A stretch of 64,000 nt of DNA from a virus. Numbering within the stretch: position 1 is the first letter of the stretch; each line of letters starts with the position of its first letter. The notes beneath the pieces are model-generated. The model did no database searches. It saw only the letters and a program-made list of their open reading frames with translations, and was not told where the DNA came from. A program made the translations under genes and the position numbers. The stretch spans positions 1 to 64,000 of IMG/VR virus record IMGVR_UViG_3300023170_000009, one strand, 5' to 3'. Shown here one piece after another: positions 3,759 to 62,941 of the stretch.

Positions 3759-3787
3759 ATTATAGCATCTAATGAGCTGTTTGTCAA
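3759..3787 (-). promoter_or_regulatory. Sigma70-type early promoter
   Basis: On the minus strand: -35 TTGACA (3787-3782), 17-base spacer, -10 TATAAT (3764-3759) preceded by TGC (extended -10). An A-rich stretch lies upstream of the -35. Drives 3511-3723 and the genes after it. Confidence 0.85.
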
Positions 3788-3793
3788 GCATTT

Positions 3794-4907: not shown

Positions 4908-4936
4908 ATTATAGCACCTATTGTGCCAAATGTCAA
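4908..4936 (-). promoter_or_regulatory. Sigma70-type early promoter
   Basis: Minus strand: TTGACA (4936-4931), 17-base spacer, TATAAT (4913-4908), with TGC directly before the -10 (extended -10). Shares the AATGCTTGACA and GTGCTATAAT blocks with the promoters at 3759, 30203 and 37013. Confidence 0.85.
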
Positions 4937-5001
4937 GCATTCAGACGAAAAGATTTCCCTTGTAGGTGCTTGATTTTATTGACTTTGTGAAAAAAGTTGA
5001 A

Positions 5002-14758: not shown

Positions 14759-15738
14759 GAAACTCCCCAAACATCCGACCAATCTCCGGACAATGCACCC
14801 CGTGCATAGTCTGTTGCTCTGTTCTCAAAGAAGTTTGTATGGGTCGGGGCGTTGATCATTTCCTCTACCCAAGGCAAAGGATTCTTTTTAACTTTAAAAA
14901 TACCTCTCATACCTAAACTAATAAGACGTCTGTCTGCAATATAACGAATATACTTTTTAACTTCCTCGGGTGTCAATCCTTCCATAGGACCCATAGCAAA
15001 TGCTAAATCAATAAACTTATCTTCAAGCTCTACCATCTTTTCTGCAATAGTGTAAATCTGAGACTTCAGTTTGTCATTCCAAATATCTAGATTTTCTTGT
15101 ACATATTCTTTAAACAACTTAATCATGTTCTCAGCATGCTGTGTTTCATCAACGATAGACCATGTAATAATCTGTCCCATTCCTTTCATCTTGCCATGAC
15201 GTGGAAAGTTTAACAACATAATGAATGATGAAAAGAGTTGCATGCCTTCCGTGAAGGCAGAGAAAGCGGCAATGTTAGTTGCAACAGATTCTCTTGTGCC
15301 ATTGGCATTAGACAGATCAGTAAAGTAATCGTGCTTATCGCGCATAGCCTCATATTCAAGAAATTCATTGTAAGTAGACTCCGGCATTCCTAGTGTTTCA
15401 ATTAAATGGCTATAGGCAGCAACATGTAGTGCTTCCCTTGCCGCAAATCCAGCAAGCATCATTCTTATTTCTGGTTGTGGGAAATAAGGTAAATAATTTG
15501 TTACATAGCCACCTGCAACATCAATATCTCCCTGTGTGAAAAAGCGAAAGATGTTTGTGAGGAAAGCCTGTTCCTCTTTTGTTAAACGATTCTTCCAATC
15601 CTTTACGTCTTCTCCCATAGGAACTTCGGTGTGTAGCCAATGAGACTGCTCGTGTTTTAGCCAAGCATCATAGGCCCATGGGTAATTGAAGGGCTTAAAA
15701 TAAGTCCTTTCGTCTGTTAGTTTTAATTTTTTTGACAT
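14755..15738 (-). CDS. nrdB: Ribonucleotide reductase class I beta subunit
   Basis: A 327-residue NrdB. EALHVAAY (Glu102, His105, Tyr109) is the ExxHxxxY motif with the radical Tyr; TQGDID supplies the first Asp ligand, FTEGM the third carboxylate, and DETQHAENM the last Glu/His pair. The protein generates the radical that NrdA uses to reduce ribonucleotides. Two QueC-like genes lie between it and nrdA. It lacks some of the length of T4 NrdB (388) but all ligands are present. Confidence 0.95.
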   Translation of the reverse strand: MSKKLKLTDERTYFKPFNYPWAYDAWLKHEQSHWLHTEVPMGEDVKDWKNRLTKEEQAFLTNIFRFFTQGDIDVAGGYVTNYLPYFPQPEIRMMLAGFAAREALHVAAYSHLIETLGMPESTYNEFLEYEAMRDKHDYFTDLSNANGTRESVATNIAAFSAFTEGMQLFSSFIMLLNFPRHGKMKGMGQIITWSIVDETQHAENMIKLFKEYVQENLDIWNDKLKSQIYTIAEKMVELEDKFIDLAFAMGPMEGLTPEEVKKYIRYIADRRLISLGMRGIFKVKKNPLPWVEEMINAPTHTNFFENRATDYARGALSGDWSDVWGVS

Positions 15739-15748
15739 TATTCTTCTC

Positions 15749-16381
15749 TTAATTTTTAAATACCTTTTCTATTGCCCAATGACGTTCCACACACCAAAAA
15801 CATATATTACAAGGTTCTGTTACATTAGGAGTAACACAACTCCAAGTCTCATCTAGAATAAAATTTTTGAGCCAATAGTCCTTTTGATCTTTGACGATTT
15901 GTAAAATATCGTCTTTATATAAATTTCTGAAGGGACATATTCCTATTAATTTCCCTCCTGTTTTTTGTTCAAACCCATCATACAATTCAAAGGTCCTAGG
16001 TTTTGTAGGAAAAAACAAAGGATCTATGTTAAAAGCATTAAAGTCATATGGGTTTTCTCCTGTCATTACAATATCAACTAGATGCCCGTCAAACAAACTT
16101 TGTACACCTCTAGCAACACATAACACATCGCTTTCATCAGTCTCAAAATATTCACCTACAATGACATTTTCTGTAGGAGCAAATCCATATCTATCGTGCA
16201 TCCATTTAACCATTTTGTTAGCTCTGTCTGCAGAACCATCTGGTTTAGGTGCAGTAAGAGGTATTAATGTTTGTCCTCTTTCTTGACATTTTTTAGCTAC
16301 CAAGTAGTAAAGTATTGTGCTATCAATACCACCTGATACCATAACACCTATTCTTTTATCTTTAGGGAAATCTATTTCCAT
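15749..16381 (-). CDS. QueC-like PP-loop ATPase (copy 1)
   Basis: A 210-residue protein. SGGIDS (16-21) is the PP-loop that binds and activates ATP. The C terminus has Cys182-x8-Cys191-x2-Cys194-x2-Cys197, the zinc-site spacing of QueC (7-cyano-7-deazaguanine synthase). This suggests an enzyme that adenylates a carboxylate and aminates it, as QueC does in making preQ0. The ATG at 16381 shares one base with the stop of a paralogue upstream (16381-17025). No queD, queE or folE is in the window, so preQ0 as product is not established. Confidence 0.75.
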   Translation of the reverse strand: MEIDFPKDKRIGVMVSGGIDSTILYYLVAKKCQERGQTLIPLTAPKPDGSADRANKMVKWMHDRYGFAPTENVIVGEYFETDESDVLCVARGVQSLFDGHLVDIVMTGENPYDFNAFNIDPLFFPTKPRTFELYDGFEQKTGGKLIGICPFRNLYKDDILQIVKDQKDYWLKNFILDETWSCVTPNVTEPCNICFWCVERHWAIEKVFKN

Positions 16382-17025
16382 TAATTTGTTCCTGTGTCTA
16401 AGTACCCTGCCTTTTCAAATGCCCATTGTCTTTCTGTACACCAATAACATTTATTACATCTACCTTCTTGTAGTTCTGTGCAACTATGTGTAATTGGCAT
16501 AATAACGTCTGCAATGCCAATGTCAAATCCCAACTTAATAGTTTTATCTTTAGTGTGGTTTTCAAAAGGCCAAGCGACAAATTCTCTCATCCATTCTTCA
16601 GGTTCAAACCTGGGATGTGGATCCTCTTTTTCATGTCTTTGATGTACTTCATCATCAAAGGCCGTCATGCCGACAAACAAAAAGTCCACTAACCTGTCGT
16701 CCGCCGTCTCTCCAAATATATCCCAAGCACCATTAGTTACATAATCCCAAGGATTATTGGACAATTCTTTTCCTACAACTGTGGGCTCTTGATAACTTAC
16801 CCCTAGTTTTTTGCTAAGTGTTTTTATAACATTCTGACTTGCTACTAAAGCACCATCTAATTTAGGGACAACAAAAGGTTCACAACTCATTCCCCTTTCA
16901 GTACATATTTTTTTAACCATATACCATAAACAAGCGCTGTCCCATCCACCGGAAACCATTACGCCAACTCTTTTATTTTCTTCAGGTATATATTTTTTTA
17001 TATCATCCCAAACAATATCTTGCAT
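16381..17025 (-). CDS. QueC-like PP-loop ATPase (copy 2)
   Basis: A 214-residue paralogue of the neighbour. SGGWDS (25-30) is the PP-loop; Cys182, Cys190, Cys193 and Cys196 form a Cys-x7-Cys-x2-Cys-x2-Cys zinc site. The middle differs strongly from the neighbour, including a His- and Glu-rich loop (QRHEKEDPHPRFEPEEW), so the two probably act on different substrates or as a heteromer. Lies four bases downstream of nrdA and directly upstream of copy 1. Confidence 0.75.
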   Translation of the reverse strand: MQDIVWDDIKKYIPEENKRVGVMVSGGWDSACLWYMVKKICTERGMSCEPFVVPKLDGALVASQNVIKTLSKKLGVSYQEPTVVGKELSNNPWDYVTNGAWDIFGETADDRLVDFLFVGMTAFDDEVHQRHEKEDPHPRFEPEEWMREFVAWPFENHTKDKTIKLGFDIGIADVIMPITHSCTELQEGRCNKCYWCTERQWAFEKAGYLDTGTN

Positions 17026-28991: not shown

Positions 28992-30170
28992 TTACTTACC
29001 TTTTTTTAATTCGTCTCCTCTAGCAAAGTTGGCAGCACTAAACTCATGTCGTGCTACAAACTTAGAAGGGCGTCCATTTCTGTGTACAACATAACCTTCT
29101 GGTTTTGTGGGCAACCCACCAATTTCATGTCCAACCTCTGAATGGGATGCTAAGGCATTTGTTAATACGTTTTTGGCATTTTGTAAATGCTTGTGCATTT
29201 GTAGAACGCTAGTAATATGTTCTTTGCTTTTACTAGCATGTGCAATGGCATTATCTCGGGTTGCTGTGTGTCTTGCCTTAGCAGCAGGCGATTTAACTCC
29301 TGCTATCTTTTTATCATGATGTGCTGTATAATGTTTTATGAAATCATCATGATTGGGTTCACTACCATCGCGAACAGTTTGATTGATATACGTCTTAATG
29401 TGTTCTGCATGCTTGCCAACGTGTGCGTGTGCTTCTTTTTTGGTTTTCTTAAACACTTCTGTGGCTGCTGCCATATGTTTTTTGTACTCTGACTGCTGTT
29501 CCTGTGTATAAGCAACTTTGCTTAAATCGTGTTGAACACTTAGATTGTGTACATCAGGGTGATCATTAAGTTCAATGTCTGCACCATGAACAGCTTTCAT
29601 ATCTGCAAAGTTTTTGCCTTCGTATTTTGTATGTACTGCAATACCTATTTGAGAGTTCATAGCCTTTTGTGCATGTTCCGAGCTAGAATCGTGGTGGTAG
29701 GTAATTGTGTTCGGTGTGTAATGTACACGAGTGCCATCGTGTCGAACATCACCTTTTGTGTGCATAATGTCTGCTTGATAAACACCCTCACCTGAGTGAA
29801 CTTTAGGTAAGTGTGCTAGTGCAGCCTTTAATTTTTGTGTTAACCCTGGGGAATGGCCGTGGTTCTTATCGATGTCCTCAGGTGTATAATTAATTTTAGG
29901 TTTCTTGTTGAACACAGATTTAGATCCTACAAAAAATTTACCTGTGTCGGGATGCTTACCAAAAACGACTGATGGACTACCATCATACTTCACAGTAATT
30001 TTGGTGTCATTTTGTCCGCCTAGCAACTTGTTATGTACATCGTTCAAATTGTGGAAGGCGTGGGCAAACCCTTGTTCGCCTCCGTGTATGACGTGATCCT
30101 CTACATGCTCCAAGTGCTTGAGCTTGTCTTCTTCTGTCTGTTCTGTAATGTGTTTCTTGAATGAGAGCAT
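28992..30170 (-). CDS. Ligase-like nucleotidyltransferase (DUF6267-like)
   Basis: About 392 residues when started at ATG 30170; an ATG at 30191 would leave a leader of only a few bases from the promoter at 30203. Motif I of covalent nucleotidyltransferases is KYDGSPSVVFG with Lys61. A Lys-containing strand (FVGSKSVFNK) follows. The C terminus has EGYVV (Glu358) and then SKFV, the order of motifs IV and V. This fits an ATP-dependent DNA/RNA-ligase-type fold, although His is unusually abundant throughout. N-terminal MLSFKKHITE resembles a capsid-targeting tag. Confidence 0.65.
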   Translation of the reverse strand: MLSFKKHITEQTEEDKLKHLEHVEDHVIHGGEQGFAHAFHNLNDVHNKLLGGQNDTKITVKYDGSPSVVFGKHPDTGKFFVGSKSVFNKKPKINYTPEDIDKNHGHSPGLTQKLKAALAHLPKVHSGEGVYQADIMHTKGDVRHDGTRVHYTPNTITYHHDSSSEHAQKAMNSQIGIAVHTKYEGKNFADMKAVHGADIELNDHPDVHNLSVQHDLSKVAYTQEQQSEYKKHMAAATEVFKKTKKEAHAHVGKHAEHIKTYINQTVRDGSEPNHDDFIKHYTAHHDKKIAGVKSPAAKARHTATRDNAIAHASKSKEHITSVLQMHKHLQNAKNVLTNALASHSEVGHEIGGLPTKPEGYVVHRNGRPSKFVARHEFSAANFARGDELKKGK

Positions 30171-30202
30171 TTCTTTAGTCCGTTTCTTCATTTTATACCA
30201 TT

Positions 30203-30231
30203 ATTATAGCACAAAATGAGCCTTTTGTCAA
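30203..30231 (-). promoter_or_regulatory. Sigma70-type promoter for the ligase-like gene
   Basis: Minus strand: TTGACA (30231-30226), 17-base spacer, TATAAT (30208-30203) with an extended TGC. An A-rich tract lies upstream. Confidence 0.8.
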
Positions 30232-30267
30232 GCATTATTTTGACTTATTTCCCCTATGGGAATCAAG

Positions 30268-36233: not shown

Positions 36234-36309
36234 TGGTGCCGGATGCAAGAATCGAACTCGCGACCTTCTCATTACAAGTGAGCTGCTCTACCTGCTGAGC
36301 TAATCCGGC
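36234..36309 (-). tRNA. tRNA-Thr (anticodon TGT), CCA encoded
   Basis: A 76-base cloverleaf on the minus strand: acceptor GCCGGAT/ATCCGGC, D arm GCTC/GAGC, anticodon loop CTTGTAA with anticodon TGT (reads ACA), T loop TTCGATT, then encoded CCA at 36236-36234. The first anticodon-stem pair is a G-A mismatch. ACA suits the AT-rich codon use of the phage. A late box lies 10 bases before it. Confidence 0.92.
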
Positions 36310-37012: not shown

Positions 37013-37041
37013 ATTATAGCACCACTAATTGAGAAAGTCAA
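37013..37041 (-). promoter_or_regulatory. Sigma70-type early promoter
   Basis: Minus strand: TTGACT (37041-37036), 17-base spacer, TATAAT (37018-37013) with extended TGC. Reads into 36662-36982 and the HTH gene. Confidence 0.8.
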
Positions 37042-37067
37042 GCAAAAGATGACCAAAATGATCAATT

Positions 37068-37580: not shown

Positions 37581-37609
37581 ATTATAGAGCCTTTTATACC
37601 ATTTGTCAA
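37581..37609 (-). promoter_or_regulatory. Sigma70-type early promoter with A-tracts
   Basis: Minus strand: TTGACA (37609-37604), 17-base spacer, TATAAT (37586-37581). Phased A-tracts directly upstream of the -35 look like an UP element. Confidence 0.85.
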
Positions 37610-37700
37610 GCATTTTTTCACATTTTTTTGAATTTTTTTTCGTTATATAAATCAATGACTTACATTTCGCTCTGAGATCCCCTGTAAACGCCTCTCTTGA

Positions 37701-55800: not shown

Positions 55801-56317
55801 CTGTTAATCTCAAATAAGTAAATAAGATATATCTATCTTTTGTATCCTCTGGAATGCACAGCTTATGTAAAAATGTGCATGGGAAAATAGATATATCACC
55901 TCGAACGTGCGGTAAGTCTGCACCTGCTATTGGGAGCTTAATAAATCCGTCGGTACTATTTAGTGTACACAATAGCATCCAACGTCTTTTATGTGTACCA
56001 TAGTTATCAAAGAAGGATTGTACTTCTACACCTTTAGGTATTTTACAAAGGTAAGGTGCTTCCCATTCTAAACTTTCATGTTCTAAATCATCATGAAGCG
56101 GTGCCTCTTCCATTAGTCCTTTGTATGAACCTAGTACAGAATTAAAATTATTATACATACCTGCCATAGGTTTTAATGCCCCTACGTCAGTATGTATTTT
56201 TATTCCTCCGGCATCTACTGCCGTTTTTAGACCTTTTTTGGATATAGATACGAGCTCCCGACAAACATCTGCCGGGAGTGCTTTTCCGAACCTACGAATA
56301 AAGTTAGAAAGTTTCAT
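55781..56317 (-). CDS. Degenerate 2OG-oxygenase-like protein
   Basis: A 178-residue protein with the outline of a 2OG-Fe(II) oxygenase. GDISIFPCTFLHKL holds a His in the distal position and RYILFTYLRL the cosubstrate side. At the usual HxD site it reads SFFDNYG, where the expected His is replaced, so iron binding is probably lost. May have become a binding or scaffolding protein. Overlaps the MoxR gene by 14 bases. Confidence 0.5.
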   Translation of the reverse strand: MKLSNFIRRFGKALPADVCRELVSISKKGLKTAVDAGGIKIHTDVGALKPMAGMYNNFNSVLGSYKGLMEEAPLHDDLEHESLEWEAPYLCKIPKGVEVQSFFDNYGTHKRRWMLLCTLNSTDGFIKLPIAGADLPHVRGDISIFPCTFLHKLCIPEDTKDRYILFTYLRLTDAKAQL

Positions 56318-57473
56318 CGAACTCGTCTTGCTCCTGTGCTTCTATAGGCTGAGGATTAGTTGGATCAACCTTTGTATACAAATCTACAAACGCTGCCTTT
56401 GTATCCTCATCAAACCTATTTACACAAAGTTGAACAGCCTTTAGCTTGTCTTTAAACATGGCGTATGCGTTTACAATGTGCTCAAGTCGACGGGTACTAA
56501 CTAGCTCGTCTATGGCACCCTCGAAGTAAGTCTTACGAATTACCTCGGACCATGTTACAAGGTGTGTAGCAAATTCTTCATCTATACACTCTGCCTTAGC
56601 CATCTTGTTGAGAACAATCTTTTTCTCAACGGCTGCTGTAGGATACTCCTGCTCCACGGTGATAGCAAACCTCTCCAGGAACGCCTCGTCTAATAGTTGG
56701 GCGCTGATAAATTTGCCGTCATCTGAACCACGGCCTTTTGTATTAGCGGTTGCTACTACTGTAAACCCTGGAGCAGGAGCGACGGTCTCGCCAGTCTTCT
56801 TGTTGAAATACGCTTTACCTTCAAGGATGGCCTGGAGACACATCAACTTGTTGGATCCGCGGTCTACTTCATCAAGGATAAGAACCGCGCCACGTTTCAT
56901 GGCGGTGAGGACCGGTCCTTCTCGATAGACGACGTTACCATCAACTAGGGTATTGCCACCGATCAAATCATCTTCGTCGGTTTCAATACTAATGTTTACA
57001 CGAATCGCCTCACGTTTTAGATTCGCACATACTTGTTCTACCATCGTAGTCTTACCGTTACCGGAGAGACCTGAGATAAAAATTGGATAAAACATTGCTG
57101 ACTCTAATACACGCTTAAGGTCTCGGTAGAAACCAAATGGGACAAATGTCGTGTCCTTCTGCGGTACCAAGTTCTGAATGTCTACGGTTAGTTTTGCCTG
57201 TGTAACAACCTTAGCCTCAGGAGTAACAACCTCAAGGATTGGCTTGGCTACAGGCTTAGGTGCGCTAACAATTGGAGACATGTTACCTTGGAACATGCCT
57301 GCTAGGTTATAAACACCTCGGCTAATTTTATAGTCGTCCTTGTTGACAATCCAACCTGGAAAAGCTAGTCCAAGTTCTTCGGCTGTCCTAAGGATGTCAA
57401 TACGCTTAAAGATGCCGTCGGCATTGTCTTTTTCTTTAAGAGCATTAATAAGTATTTTACGATCATTTTGCAT
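56304..57473 (-). CDS. cobS: MoxR/CobS-like AAA+ ATPase
   Basis: A 389-residue AAA+ ATPase from ATG 57473. Walker A GLSGNGKTT at 135-143, Walker B AVLILDEVDRG near 185, and ATANTKGRG as sensor 1. Marine phage annotations often call this CobS, but the N terminus differs and no cobalamin gene accompanies it here. MoxR ATPases typically act with a VWA protein, and one follows at 57598. The upstream promoter is a copy of that gene's promoter. Likely a remodelling machine. Confidence 0.85.
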   Translation of the reverse strand: MQNDRKILINALKEKDNADGIFKRIDILRTAEELGLAFPGWIVNKDDYKISRGVYNLAGMFQGNMSPIVSAPKPVAKPILEVVTPEAKVVTQAKLTVDIQNLVPQKDTTFVPFGFYRDLKRVLESAMFYPIFISGLSGNGKTTMVEQVCANLKREAIRVNISIETDEDDLIGGNTLVDGNVVYREGPVLTAMKRGAVLILDEVDRGSNKLMCLQAILEGKAYFNKKTGETVAPAPGFTVVATANTKGRGSDDGKFISAQLLDEAFLERFAITVEQEYPTAAVEKKIVLNKMAKAECIDEEFATHLVTWSEVIRKTYFEGAIDELVSTRRLEHIVNAYAMFKDKLKAVQLCVNRFDEDTKAAFVDLYTKVDPTNPQPIEAQEQDEFDETF

Positions 57474-57516
57474 AATATAAGTCCTCACAAATATATCAAT
57501 TTCTTCAGTTTATGTG

Positions 57517-57567
57517 TATATGATAGCACCTTTTACGCTAAAAGTCAAGCATTTTTTTGACTTTTTT
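57517..57567 (-). repeat. 51-bp perfect direct repeat, copy 1 (promoter duplication)
   Basis: Identical to 59842-59892 over 51 bases. It covers the -35 and -10 and the A-rich region upstream, so the two genes have the same promoter. Confidence 0.9.
57520..57548 (-). promoter_or_regulatory. Sigma70-type promoter for the MoxR-like ATPase
   Basis: Minus strand: TTGACT (57548-57543), 17-base spacer, TATCAT (57525-57520), extended TGC before the -10 and an A-tract upstream. Confidence 0.75.
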
Positions 57568-57597
57568 GCATCTTTTTTGCCCAAGTATATCAACATG

Positions 57598-59808
57598 TTA
57601 GGCTACCATATCCATAAAGGTATTCAAAAACACCTTGTTCTGTACTTTATTCTTGTTGAAATTGCGGAAGCCTCGGAGAAGATCGCCCTTACTGTTGGAT
57701 TTCACTTCTAGTTCTGTTTCCTCAATATTGAGCGCTGATCCACCCTTGAGGAGTATCCTGGCATCAAAGCCTATAACATCGTTTACAACAAGCATTCCTT
57801 TGCTACGACTATCTTTCCAGAGATCCTCAAAATCTGTCCAGGTAGCTTTAGGGTTGTTCATGCGATAGTAAATATTAAACTCGTTTTCAACGCAATTCTT
57901 ATTCCAATGAGTTAGGTAGAAGTTCACAACTCTAGAACCTGTGTATTGCTTGTAAATTTCTAACAAGCAAGCTGTCTGTTGAGCCCAAGTTCTAGCATAA
58001 TAGTTATACTTGGAAGTAATGTGAATGCCTTTGTAGCGTGCTGTGACGTTACCTGTGTTCATATAATCTGGATATGAACCATCTTCGATTCTATATTTCA
58101 AGCTGTCTGTAGCACTGCCGTCTGTAATGAATATGCTATTCAATACCTGTACCTTATGCTTCTGCCTAAACTCTTTGGCAATTTGCATTCCTAAGATAAT
58201 TGTAGAATTAAGAGGAGTGCCTGAAAAATCTAGATGTTTGGTAGCAACTTCTGACCAAATTTTCTGATCTCGGTATGCTTTGCGATTGAGAAAACATTGC
58301 TTAAGCAACAGCATGTGTTTCATAGCCATTTTTGTTTGAGAAGCAGACCAAGTAGAATTAAATAACTCTCTTAGTTTACAGTCTGAAGTCTGTAGACATG
58401 CCTCACCAATTTCGGGGGAGTTGGCATATACGTTTTCGCCTTCAGCACCCCAAAGATCTGCTGTAGTAAATCCATATACTTCATATGGAATGTTTACTTT
58501 ACGACAGAACATAATTTGAATGAGTAGCTGATCAACGGTGCCTGCAAAGTGATTGTGCATACTACCCGACATATCTACATACATAAGCATGCCGTGATTC
58601 TTACCTTCAGGAACCATAGTGGATTGCTTAAACAAATCCTCAGATATTTTGTATGCCCACAGCTTGTTTTCGTTAAGGTCTCCTGTCTTGCTCATACGAA
58701 TTTTAGACAGTACCTTTGCTTTGCGCTTCATTTCAAACTGTTGAACCATATGATTAACATGGCTGGTATTAGTTCTAAGGAACTCTTTGTACAAGTCGTT
58801 GCCATAGTCATCGTTATTCATCTTGGTGCCCTGGCGCCATCCATCTGCATAGAAATTGAATGCCTTGTGTATATCACCGTAAATTTCTTTACCTGTAATT
58901 AGATGATCTTTCCAGTTTGACATTGTAGGAACATCAAAGTAACTATGCTTTTCGCTTTCTTTCTTAACCAACTTGTCTTCGTTCTGACGAAATGCCTCAT
59001 CTGTAAGTGAAGTTGGCTCGTCGGATCTGATTGCATCTCGAACATTATTAGATGCCATATTGTCCTGTGGCTCTTCCTCTTCTTCAGACGAGGATTCAGC
59101 GTCACCTGAAGTTGAACCTTCTTCCTCGGTCTCTTCTTCTTCGGACTCTTCGTCTTGTTCGCCAAAGTTTGAAGTCATTTCACCGAAATCTTCTTCGTCT
59201 ATTTCTTCAAGTTCTTCGTCGCTAAAGTTTGAAGACAAGCTTTCTTTGTCTTTTTCTAGATCTTCTGTAGCCTGTCCGTATATATCTTGAGCAAGAGCTT
59301 CTACGTCTTCCCAAGTTTCGGTTTTCAAACAACGATCTACAAGCAATTGTTCTGCATCTGTAAATTGAATGTTTAAAAAAGAGCCAACTTTAAAGTGTAG
59401 GTTAATCCGATCAATGAGGGGAAGTGTATTGGGGTCTAAATCTTTGACACCAAAAAAGTCTCGATTGAAAAGTTCTCGATATCCTTCGTAAAAAGACTTA
59501 ACAAGGCCTGGATACATTGCCTTAATCTTACGTTCAATCCTAGCATCTTCAACAACATTAAGAAAAGGCTTAAGGCGCTGATCGTCTACAATAGCGTCAT
59601 GCCAACCTTGTTGAGGAGTGTTGAGTGCGTGGGATACTTCGTGTCCTACAAGCAGATCGTACAAGGAAGCGTTGATGTCGCCCCAATTAGGTAATACGAT
59701 TTTACGAGTTTTGAGATCAAAAGCTGCGGTAGGGACATTACGATGTTCAATCTTAAGGTCCTCGGTCGCTAACAGCTTTGCTAATATTGATTTTGTTTCT
59801 ATTAACAT
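57598..59808 (-). CDS. VWA-domain protein with HExxH motif (CobT-like partner)
   Basis: A 736-residue protein. HEVSH (56-60) is a zinc-metalloprotease motif. A long acidic low-complexity stretch (about 205-265) follows. The VWA part has YVDMSGSM near 393, a MIDAS site (DxSxS), and later IFITDGSA. Known in marine T4-like phages as a peptidase or CobT-like protein. With the MoxR ATPase it resembles bacterial MoxR-VWA pairs that insert metals or remodel proteins. Target unknown. Confidence 0.85.
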   Translation of the reverse strand: MLIETKSILAKLLATEDLKIEHRNVPTAAFDLKTRKIVLPNWGDINASLYDLLVGHEVSHALNTPQQGWHDAIVDDQRLKPFLNVVEDARIERKIKAMYPGLVKSFYEGYRELFNRDFFGVKDLDPNTLPLIDRINLHFKVGSFLNIQFTDAEQLLVDRCLKTETWEDVEALAQDIYGQATEDLEKDKESLSSNFSDEELEEIDEEDFGEMTSNFGEQDEESEEEETEEEGSTSGDAESSSEEEEEPQDNMASNNVRDAIRSDEPTSLTDEAFRQNEDKLVKKESEKHSYFDVPTMSNWKDHLITGKEIYGDIHKAFNFYADGWRQGTKMNNDDYGNDLYKEFLRTNTSHVNHMVQQFEMKRKAKVLSKIRMSKTGDLNENKLWAYKISEDLFKQSTMVPEGKNHGMLMYVDMSGSMHNHFAGTVDQLLIQIMFCRKVNIPYEVYGFTTADLWGAEGENVYANSPEIGEACLQTSDCKLRELFNSTWSASQTKMAMKHMLLLKQCFLNRKAYRDQKIWSEVATKHLDFSGTPLNSTIILGMQIAKEFRQKHKVQVLNSIFITDGSATDSLKYRIEDGSYPDYMNTGNVTARYKGIHITSKYNYYARTWAQQTACLLEIYKQYTGSRVVNFYLTHWNKNCVENEFNIYYRMNNPKATWTDFEDLWKDSRSKGMLVVNDVIGFDARILLKGGSALNIEETELEVKSNSKGDLLRGFRNFNKNKVQNKVFLNTFMDMVA

Positions 59809-59841
59809 ATTAAGAATGTCCTCACATTTCTATATTATGTC

Positions 59842-59892
59842 TATATGATAGCACCTTTTACGCTAAAAGTCAAGCATTTTTTTGACTTTTTT
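59842..59892 (-). repeat. 51-bp perfect direct repeat, copy 2 (promoter duplication)
   Basis: Identical to 57517-57567 over 51 bases; the flanks differ. Confidence 0.9.
59845..59873 (-). promoter_or_regulatory. Sigma70-type promoter for the VWA gene
   Basis: Minus strand: TTGACT (59873-59868), 17-base spacer, TATCAT (59850-59845), with the same A-tract as the MoxR promoter. Confidence 0.75.
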
Positions 59893-60790: not shown

Positions 60791-61485
60791 GTACTGCTCC
60801 TTTTAAACCTGTATACTGTTAAACCACCATTCCGGTAATTTAATATATTTTTTAAATTTACAAAATTGTTCTTCTTACTAGGATGTATTTCTATAACATC
60901 AAAGTCAGAGAAATAACCTATAAATTCTTTATTGGAAAAACTTGTTTCAAACGGTGCCTCTTCTTGATCTTTTCTTAAAAGTTCTGATCTGTATTTTACG
61001 TTAATAATTTTTTTGACAATCTTTCCAAATTTATTATAAACACCTAACACCAAAGTTCCTTCCTGTGATAACATGCTTTTTATTTTTATAATAGCATCGT
61101 AATACATTGGCATATGATGTATTACTCCATTACTTATAATACAATCATATTTTTTACGTTTATCAAAATCAAAAAAGTTTTTCTTTTCATAAACTACATT
61201 TTTTAATTTGTGTTTTTTACTAAACTCTTTTGCATAATCAATTGAATCACTGAAGTCTACGCCAAGAAACTTTTTACTAGGATATTTATATGCCAAGTAG
61301 TTTGTTATAAACCCTGTACCACAACCTATATCTAAAATATTTTCTTTATCCTGTATAGCACGTTCGTACATGGATAAAAATTTATTGGTGTATCCATTGT
61401 TATAGTAATCAAAGTTATCTATTGTATATGGTCCAGGAAACTTTATTTTACTATAAAAGTCCTTGACCTCATTTTCAAGGTTCAT
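60787..61485 (-). CDS. SAM-dependent methyltransferase
   Basis: A 232-residue class I methyltransferase. LDIGCGTGF (about 51-59) is motif I for SAM; FLGVDFS is the next acidic strand; DCIISNGVIHHM is the post-motif. The His-His-Met resembles small-molecule or lipid methyltransferases rather than DNA ones. AT-rich and Lys-rich compared with neighbours, which may indicate recent transfer. Coupled by a 4-base overlap to the ClpP-like gene upstream. Confidence 0.85.
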   Translation of the reverse strand: MNLENEVKDFYSKIKFPGPYTIDNFDYYNNGYTNKFLSMYERAIQDKENILDIGCGTGFITNYLAYKYPSKKFLGVDFSDSIDYAKEFSKKHKLKNVVYEKKNFFDFDKRKKYDCIISNGVIHHMPMYYDAIIKIKSMLSQEGTLVLGVYNKFGKIVKKIINVKYRSELLRKDQEEAPFETSFSNKEFIGYFSDFDVIEIHPSKKNNFVNLKNILNYRNGGLTVYRFKRSST

Positions 61486-62042
61486 TTTTTCTTTGTGCCA
61501 CTTTTATTTCTTTTTTCCAAACGTTTAATCACTTCATTGGCATCCATCCAAAAGTCTTTTCCTTCCACAACTTGATCTATCTCAGTTTTAGTCATAAACC
61601 CTGAGTAAACGCTATGTAATAAATTATTAGCCCAAGCGTGTTCAGCAAGTGCTCTTGAAATTAATTCGTTTCCTTTACCCCAATTACCTGCTGAATAATT
61701 ATGAATTAGAAACTGAGAATGTTCTGAAACCTCGCAAACATCTGCCGTTAAAAATAAGAATGTTGCTGCTGACATGCAGGCTCCTTCTACAGAAGCAACC
61801 ACGGTTCCTTTACATTCGCCTATTGCTCGCATCAACTGTATGGTTGTCATTATATCACCACCATAACAATTAATATGAAAAATTATGTAATCGTTTTCGC
61901 CTGCTGATCTAATAGACTGATTCCATAACACATAATCTTTAGGGCTTTCTATTGTATCGTTTAGATAAAAATCTAAAACTCTACCACCTGTTCTTTCAAA
62001 AATTCCTGCTTCTACATTTACATTGACATTAGATTCGTTCAT
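61482..62042 (-). CDS. clpP: ClpP-like serine protease
   Basis: A 186-residue ClpP-fold protease. EGACMSAATFLFL holds the nucleophile Ser91, SQFLIHNYSAG the His114, and the acidic residue lies further along. INCYGGDI gives the oxyanion-side Gly loop. Basic tail (KRNKSGTKKK). May degrade host proteins with host ClpX or act in head maturation; phage ClpP copies have been linked to both. Overlaps the neighbours by 4 and 14 bases. Confidence 0.88.
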   Translation of the reverse strand: MNESNVNVNVEAGIFERTGGRVLDFYLNDTIESPKDYVLWNQSIRSAGENDYIIFHINCYGGDIMTTIQLMRAIGECKGTVVASVEGACMSAATFLFLTADVCEVSEHSQFLIHNYSAGNWGKGNELISRALAEHAWANNLLHSVYSGFMTKTEIDQVVEGKDFWMDANEVIKRLEKRNKSGTKKK

Positions 62043-62401: not shown

Positions 62402-62941
62402 TTAGACTCCTTTTATATTATTTATGTTCCTTTTGAAACGCTTAATTTTTTTGTCTAAGGCTTTTAATGCTCTGTCAAGTTTAAATTTAGATACTCGCAT
62501 TGTAAAATTTTTACCTAACATGTGATCGTATTCGTGTAAGGCAATTCTTCCTGCAAGTGATTTGAATGTTTCAAAGACTTCTTTACCTTCAGTGTCTGTA
62601 TATCTAAAGGTTGCTTCAGTTGGCCTGTTTACATGTAACCACAATCCAGGAAAGGACAAACACCCCTCTTTTTCTATAGATGTTTCATCACTTACAGATA
62701 CTAGCAAAGGATTAAATAGAATACGATTAAAGCCTTCCGCTTGAGGAATATTAATAGTAAAGACTGCCATATCTAATCCTACTTGGTTAGCTGAGAGTCC
62801 TGCACCATTGAGCTCTTGTGTTCTCTCTAAAAGAACCTTTGCTACTTCTTTAGCATCGTGTTCCTCATAATTGAAAGGACTAGGAGTCTTTCTTAATAGC
62901 TCATGTCCAAAAGGCAGTAATTGTAATTCTTCTTTATTCAT
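62402..62941 (-). CDS. def: Peptide deformylase
   Basis: A 179-residue metalloenzyme that removes formyl from new proteins. Motif 1 is GAGLSANQVG (47-56), motif 2 EGCLS (92-96, metal Cys94), motif 3 HEYDH (136-140, His ligands and catalytic Glu). All active-site residues are present. Common in marine phages, where it may favour phage protein processing. Basic C terminus. Overlaps the glutaredoxin gene by 8 bases. Confidence 0.93.
   Translation of the reverse strand: MNKEELQLLPFGHELLRKTPSPFNYEEHDAKEVAKVLLERTQELNGAGLSANQVGLDMAVFTINIPQAEGFNRILFNPLLVSVSDETSIEKEGCLSFPGLWLHVNRPTEATFRYTDTEGKEVFETFKSLAGRIALHEYDHMLGKNFTMRVSKFKLDRALKALDKKIKRFKRNINNIKGV
62419..62426 (-). promoter_or_regulatory. Late-promoter-like box
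   Basis: CATAAATA on the minus strand, one mismatch from TATAAATA, 19 bases before the ATG at 62400. Confidence 0.45.

Follow-up and report, generated by a model that had tools for sequence, protein, structure and literature searches.

The window analysed here is the stretch of 64,000 nucleotides (nt) at positions 1 to 64,000 of the virus record IMGVR_UViG_3300023170_000009. Towards its end two adjacent genes, which we call T and S, are read from the minus strand, each behind a copy of nearly the same promoter. T (57598..59808, 736 amino acids (aa)) encodes an N-terminal zincin-like HExxH region, an acidic low-complexity middle and a C-terminal VWA domain with a metal ion-dependent adhesion site (MIDAS), and S (56304..57473) encodes a MoxR/CobS-like AAA+ ATPase (AAA_5, phrog_249, structural match AfCbbQ2). 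The pair is already known from marine viruses and the novelty of the present copy is modest; what it sharpens is the question of the role of "cobS" in marine phages.

The list of open reading frames (ORFs) starts S with a GTG at 57488, while an alternative ATG at 57473 is preceded by GTGAGGAC and is for that reason probably the true start. T is followed by S on the same strand, S being present in 79 of the 80 relatives' loci (numbered L005, L008 and so on in our set) with at least 1200 nt of sequence downstream of T. An extra 227-aa ORF lies between T and S at L008:8217-8900 and L012:7328-8011, and in the L008 lineage S retains its own cassette promoter behind this ORF.

The S and T proteins

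A first-pass annotation of the window, made by a model from the letters alone, had called S a AAA+ ATPase, and the profile matches bear this out (AAA_5 with 62.1 bits, over its cut-off; phrog_249 with E 7.8e-110). In an alignment of 29 S sequences the Walker residues G140, G143-T147, D206 and E207 are invariant in 29/29. The AlphaFold model of S (predicted local distance difference test (pLDDT) 80.2, predicted template modelling score (pTM) 0.65) superimposes on AfCbbQ2 (6l1q_A) with a template modelling (TM) score of 0.84 by target length and 0.58 by query length; among the 50 structural matches listed, CbbQ and NorQ are the closest folds and no CobS chain occurs. By sequence, the nearest solved chains are those of midasin (E 9.9e-42, in four stretches) and CobS (9ujv, E 2e-21, 79.4 bits), followed by NorQ (E 6.6e-12, 48.1 bits) and CbbQ (E 1.5e-9, 40.3 bits), and hhalign aligns S with bacterial CobS over the AAA+ domain at a probability of 99.5% (E 1.1e-22). 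Judged by these matches, S is a MoxR-type AAA+ ATPase and a homologue of CobS.

The same annotation had described T as a metalloprotease-like VWA protein, and motifs that fit both halves of that description are present. T matches phrog_459 "peptidase" with E 2.4e-173 and carries HEVSH at residues 56-60 (codons at 59629..59643, minus strand) and DMSGS at residues 412-416 (codons at 58561..58575, minus strand). Across 44 aligned T sequences, H56, E57, H60, N84, E87, D88, R90, I91 and E92 are invariant, as are D412, S414, S416, T531 and D563, which make up a complete MIDAS of the form DxSxS-T-D (defined thus in the available text of PMC13036017). A second set, including the phages S-PM2, HTVC008M and DLP_6, keeps H56, E57, H60, E87 and D88 in 31/31, and HExxH is found in all 87 T loci that cover the motif position, six more loci ending before it. 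In the predicted model of T (pLDDT 78.0, pTM 0.69) the HExxH motif lies in a helix of residues 47-63 and E87-E92 in a helix of residues 77-98. We read the N-terminus of T as an intact gluzincin-type motif, HExxH...NxxEDxRIE, that is, HExxH with a downstream acidic helix as in metallopeptidases; E87 or E92 may serve as the third ligand.

The Pfam scan matched no VWA model to T, and the VWA fold is taken from the predicted structure. Its best structural matches are NorD (Z 16.5, root-mean-square deviation (rmsd) 4.7, 262 residues aligned, about 10% identity) and, tied with it, the MIDAS part of MDN1 (midasin; Z 16.2, rmsd 3.0, 215 aligned), the best match outside NorD, MDN1 and Rea1 having a Z of 12.8. 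A sequence search of the PDB with T returned nothing significant, and the structure comparison lists are filled by the VWA part, with the zincin region barely probed. The locus combines a MoxR-type AAA+ protein with Walker A and B motifs and an adjacent VWA gene with a complete MIDAS, as is characteristic of MoxR/VWA pairs.

Promoter copies before T and S

The promoter cassette of T (59835..59892, minus strand) has a -35 box TTGACT at 59873-59868, a 17-nt spacer and a -10 box TATCAT at 59850-59845, and that of S (57510..57567, minus strand) has the same boxes at 57548-57543 and 57525-57520 with the same spacing; a TG dinucleotide precedes the -10 box in both. The two form a direct repeat of 58 nt with a single mismatch (57/58 identical) and a start-to-start distance of 2,325 bp. 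The longest perfect run within it is 51 nt, in agreement with the earlier claim of a duplicated 51-bp promoter upstream of each gene, and L005 has the same sequence. Allowing up to three mismatches, the 31-nt repeat core occurs twice in the window and in none of 100 shuffles, and the 162,417-base virus record, whose completeness is unstated, holds only these two copies. Both copies are also present in two more contigs of the same phage species (L022; L018 together with L023) and are retained by the strain-level relatives L005 and L007. An origin by chance or as an assembly artefact can be rejected because the two further contigs carry both copies with the same distinct flanks. Another possibility we weighed was that recombination between the direct repeats had removed T: the seven exact core matches (in six stretches) all precede T or S, and no version lacking T was seen.

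Each copy contains a 9-bp stem-loop, AAAAGTCAA/TTGACTTTT, that overlaps the -35 box. The predicted RNA fold is -7.9 kcal/mol (z -3.95) at the T promoter (59865..59890, minus strand) and -9.3 kcal/mol (z -2.51) at the S promoter (57540..57565, minus strand), and was equalled by one of 200 shuffles in each of two contexts.

The two promoters belong to a larger family. The class pattern TGCTTGAC-N16-GCTATMAT has seven exact matches in the record, those of T and S included, and one further member differs from it by a single mismatch. The type thus has eight or more members, each of these eight read from the minus strand. Allowing up to three mismatches raises the counts to 4 on the forward and 16 on the reverse strand, where a reversed-pattern control gives 0 and 1. 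Members elsewhere in the window, again on the minus strand, lie at 37013..37044 (an exact match), at 37581..37612 (one mismatch), at 30203..30234, directly upstream of a DUF6267 gene (28992-30191, minus strand; PF19782 with 333.8 bits, phrog_455), and, from the class pattern scan, at 4908..4939 and 3759..3790. Both families of direct repeats of at least 28 nt (seed 14) in the 64-kb window are made up of such promoters. When 12 promoters were compared, the T/S pair scored 55 and the next pair 36, with T or S reaching at most 26 against any other. The T/S promoter pair is the extreme of this family; the idea of a promoter private to the pair is rejected, as it falls within a family of at least eight. 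A second unusually alike pair, at 37581-37612 (37609) and record positions 139232-139263 (139260), accounts for the local score of 36, and close copies are therefore not limited to T and S. From their boxes and spacing we regard the T and S promoters as sigma-70-type, a type that would suit early expression.

Matched promoters recur in relatives. In the next lineage (L008, L011, L012) the T and S promoters are alike in another sequence, sharing a 27-nt block that extends into the -35 box. Likeness was scored in 27 loci, a non-redundant set in which T and S are 75 nt or more apart, leaving out loci without S, without the start of T or too similar to an earlier locus. The within-locus T/S score was strictly the top one in both directions in eight of them (L005, L008, L051, L058, L078, L085, L117 and L121), and the mean T/S score of 17.7 was reached in none of 20,000 random re-pairings of T and S promoters (null mean 8.7), a result that is unchanged without L005 and without L005, L008 and L117 together. 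In 16/27 loci the promoter regions of T and S also score higher with each other than either does with any other part of its own locus. These figures establish likeness rather than its cause, since the base composition and promoter consensus shared within a genome inflate the scores. A further 19 loci, made non-redundant separately, have T-S gaps of 31-71 nt, and here S may be readable from the promoter of T. The repeat that the first-pass annotation proposed to compare in related phages is thus present in kind in some lineages, with different letters, and the refuting condition set there, its absence from all close relatives, does not apply; because matched promoters recur in this way, their sharing is more than an accident of a single strain.

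Some of these sequences also precede other genes. Eight viral stretches together contain 11 exact copies of the 27-nt block from the L008 lineage: three lie before T and three before S, and the other five precede an unrelated 134-aa ORF. The S copies and those of this third gene have leader sequence in common as well, including a short stretch past an ATG. T and S were not found in the stretches with the 134-aa ORF, which may come from the same phages or from others. A 23-nt block of L085 occurs exactly twice in the whole scan of the viral_contigs collection, both times in a single 69-kb contig, once ahead of T and once ahead of S. An L117-type promoter is found before T and S in L189, while in L190 and L191 it stands before an ORF that lies upstream of T.

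In T4-type phages, a PeSL (promoter early stem-loop) consists of an early promoter placed at several genes together with an adjoining stem-loop that acts as a terminator, and takes part in gene shuffling; such cassettes were reportedly described by Arbiol in 2010 and by Comeau in 2014. The matched promoters here look like mobile, PeSL-like promoter-leader modules spread by recombination, rather than a dosage device, and a mobile promoter cassette seems the simplest cause of the sharing between T and S. Spreading of promoter-leader cassettes by recombination in T4-type phages is stated in the available text of PMC4503421. The present set would be a plain case of one promoter-leader cassette standing before several genes in phages other than the enteric T4 group.

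Gene neighbourhood and distribution

Downstream of the pair the window encodes the gp45 clamp, the gp44 and gp62 clamp loader, regA, DNA polymerase, UvsX and a helicase. The survey of relatives covers 93 loci, counting near-duplicates and loci with short flanks; in 79 of these the available flank contains a T4 gene for replication or recombination, most often gp46 (55 loci), gp45 (40), gp47 (37) and gp44 (32). Upstream of the pair, gp46/gp47 lie on the same strand in 55/93 loci, gp45/gp44 lie downstream in 39/93, and 17/93 show both. HTVC008M, S-PM2 and P-RSM4 have the same gene order, and in Stenotrophomonas phage DLP_6 the pair stands beside UvsX and a primase/helicase.

Of 50,697 phage records, T matches 463 (E <=1e-5) and S 464 (E <=1e-20), with near-equal organism counts, the records not being matched one-to-one. 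T has less than 60% identity to all 463 of its matches, and a megablast of the locus against phages gave no match. In a genome collection, a relative is encoded by 25 of the 128 pattern stretches, 22 of them in records titled MAG (metagenome-assembled genome); these are presumably phage contigs.

Other features are recorded here in their own right. Somewhat upstream of T and S, on the minus strand, are genes for a ClpP-like protease (61482-62042; PF00574 with 35.8 bits) and a peptide deformylase (62402-62941; phrog_2890). Two adjacent ORFs at 15749-17025 (minus strand) have weak C-terminal matches to QueC (PF06508, 33.0 and 28.8 bits, cut-off 22); they lie beside the class I ribonucleotide reductase (RNR) genes and possibly serve 7-deazaguanine chemistry or represent a split PP-loop enzyme. 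The sole tRNA found in the window is a tRNA-Thr (tgt; 36234-36309, minus strand). A permuted transfer-messenger RNA (tmRNA) of alphaproteobacterial type (RF04321 with 110 bits, RF01849 with 70.2 bits, tag ANDEVFSLAA) was located at L030:82-477 on the minus strand, corresponding to about 137.8-138.2 kb of the phage's own record, and its type hints at an alphaproteobacterial host.

Proposed function, rival explanations and known systems

The reading we favour, with a confidence that stops just short of even, is that T and S work together as a remodelling machine of the MoxR/VWA kind, equipped with a metallopeptidase domain, directed at a replication- or takeover-linked target and expressed early from promoter cassettes. 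S would form a hexameric AAA+ ring on which T would dock with its VWA domain, and the MIDAS of that domain would grip the target protein, which ATP hydrolysis would twist or open, as proposed for NorQ-NorD (a twisting model for NorQD is given in the available text of PMC13036017). That of PMC9976466 gives a stoichiometry consistent with six NorQ per NorD, and a role for the N-terminal domains. As the N-terminus of T carries an intact gluzincin-type motif, the target would probably also be clipped by T, or at least gripped through a real zinc site that is lacking in the CobT proteins sampled. T and S would be turned on together, presumably early in infection, since each has a sigma-70-type promoter of the phage's promoter family, and the promoter-leader cassettes would move between genes through recombination as PeSLs do. 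Because the pair sits among T4-type replication and recombination genes, we would look for the target in replication or early takeover and not in cobalamin synthesis. The first-pass annotation spoke of a machine of unknown target; the likeness to MoxR/VWA remodellers supports the machine, and the pair is less unknown than that wording implied, having been published as cobST (in the available text of PMC8651126).

Several observations weigh against this reading. The neighbourhood does not prove a role in replication: 14/93 loci have no T4 replication gene in the available flank, L015 and L099 are arranged differently, and the count of loci with such genes on both sides is low, in part because many flanks are short. 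One locus, L091, has T without S within 3997 nt downstream. The sequence of S is nearer to CobS than to NorQ or CbbQ. For the N-terminal region of T, the Pfam scan found no family in more than one of the 44 members, and the best solved chain for its profile in the PDB is a ribosomal protein with E 0.28. The regular expression D.SGS fails in seven loci (L064-L068, L073 and L087), although in the four of these that are in the 44-sequence alignment (L064, L067, L068 and L087) the D, S and S stand at their aligned positions. A relation of T to bacterial CobT is weak by hhalign (probabilities of 8.7% and 15.7%) and amounts to a suggestive register, in which the histidines of the motif are gone from CobT and the glutamate facing E87 is retained in many. 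As to the cassettes, in 11/27 loci the T/S likeness does not exceed that to the rest of the locus, the S promoters of L118 and L120 have better matches elsewhere, the A/T-rich stem-loop is absent from the terminator-like sites of the terminator scan, and the equivalent segment in the L008 lineage has a fold no more stable than that of its shuffles (z 0.64).

One rival follows from the published name. The available text of PMC8651126 reports viral cobST, counts the pair in the cyanophage core genome and calls phage cobT "mistakenly annotated as a peptidase", and cobS is counted among cyanophage metabolic genes in the accessible portions of PMC9146016 and PMC2984593. S and T would, on this account, replace or boost the motor of the host cobaltochelatase, use the host CobN, raise cobalamin and so aid DNA synthesis, the CobST role being proposed in PMC8651126 and the RNR idea in PMC2984593, in the same portions of these papers. 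We think it unlikely. S is a CobS homologue by the hhalign result and by its closeness to 9ujv, and several viral proteins whose predicted structures match the T model (E 5e-15 and weaker) are named cobalamin biosynthesis, CobT-like or VWFA, such names being annotations; yet S scores 76.9 bits with TIGR01650 (CobS) against an equivalog cut-off of 558.55, and T 8.6 bits with TIGR01651 (CobT) against 759.05. HExxH occurs nowhere in 26 sampled bacterial CobT loci over the TIGR01651 cut-off (L150-L175; 0/26), a sample from one bacterial family: CobT turned up in one of four genomes and, above the cut-off, in 37 of 41 genomes of that genome's family, from which 25 more loci were added. The weak hhalign register sets GHEVSHAL of the phage against GTADAYAL, and EDARIE against ATARCE in L150 or, in many others, ETARCE. 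The sole bacterial locus examined has S before T, the reverse of the phage order. CobN (PF02514) has no match in the phage's own 162-kb record, of unstated completeness (a host CobN is possible), nor in any of six relatives' records, likewise of unstated completeness and one of them from the same species; the earlier remark that no cobalamin genes are present here agrees with this. Finally, the phage RNR is of class I (PRK09102 with 746.6 bits, cut-off 620; B12-type NrdJ_Z with 211.0, cut-off 399.95), with NrdB (14878-15705) as well as an NrdA-type subunit, and therefore does not itself call for B12. Going by these scores and motifs T is not an orthodox CobT, and given the invariant HExxH "peptidase" may be a better name for it than cobT.

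Another rival keeps the MoxR/VWA pair as a non-proteolytic chaperone for metal insertion or enzyme activation, its HExxH region binding only the target or a structural zinc. This, too, strikes us as rather improbable, since E57 is invariant in 44/44 sequences, which one would not expect if the zinc had a structural role alone. The first-pass annotation had instead drawn from the shared promoter that equal dosage of the two proteins matters, identical promoters keeping S and T at the same level. Matched promoters do recur, strictly top in the eight loci named above, and the L085 cassette has its only exact copies in the viral_contigs scan before T and S. We nevertheless reject the equal-dosage reading as very unlikely: in the 19 loci with gaps below 75 nt S may be read from the T promoter, 11 of the 27 scored loci show no T/S likeness beyond that to the rest of the locus, the L008-type cassette also precedes an unrelated ORF, and for NorQ:NorD a ratio of about 6:1 is reported (in the available text of PMC9976466).

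A stronger form of the remodelling reading, possible although doubtful, is that T and S act as a metalloprotease, driven by the AAA+ ATPase and aimed by the MIDAS, which unfolds and cuts one particular replication or takeover protein, CobT being a derived relative that has lost the protease site. If this were so, a pair of core genes in marine T4-like phages would serve regulated proteolysis and not vitamin B12. The zincin motif, the class I RNR, the lack of a CobN match and the replication neighbourhood argue for a remodelling or protease role of "cobS", and the residues that would decide are E57 and D412 of T and the Walker motifs of S.

Among known systems, CobS-CobT(-CobN) resembles the pair in that S is a CobS homologue and in that T and the one CobT examined have an N-terminal region, an acidic middle and a DxSGS motif; it differs in the unreached cut-offs, the HExxH of T, the absence of a CobN match and the reversed gene order of the one bacterial locus. 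NorQ-NorD is among the best structural matches of both T and S, and differs in the zincin motif of the N-terminal region of T and in the low identity of the VWA part; no nitric oxide reductase genes are among the annotated neighbours, no search having been aimed at them. The PeSLs are like the present cassettes in that a promoter and a stem-loop next to it recur ahead of several genes, whereas the stem here overlaps the -35 box, is A/T-rich and is not in the terminator list. The closest counterpart is the phage "cobS-peptidase" or cobST pair (phrog_249 and phrog_459), which has the same genes, the same T-then-S order and a similar neighbourhood, the present copy being set apart by its distance from the named phages and by its 51-nt perfect promoter duplication.

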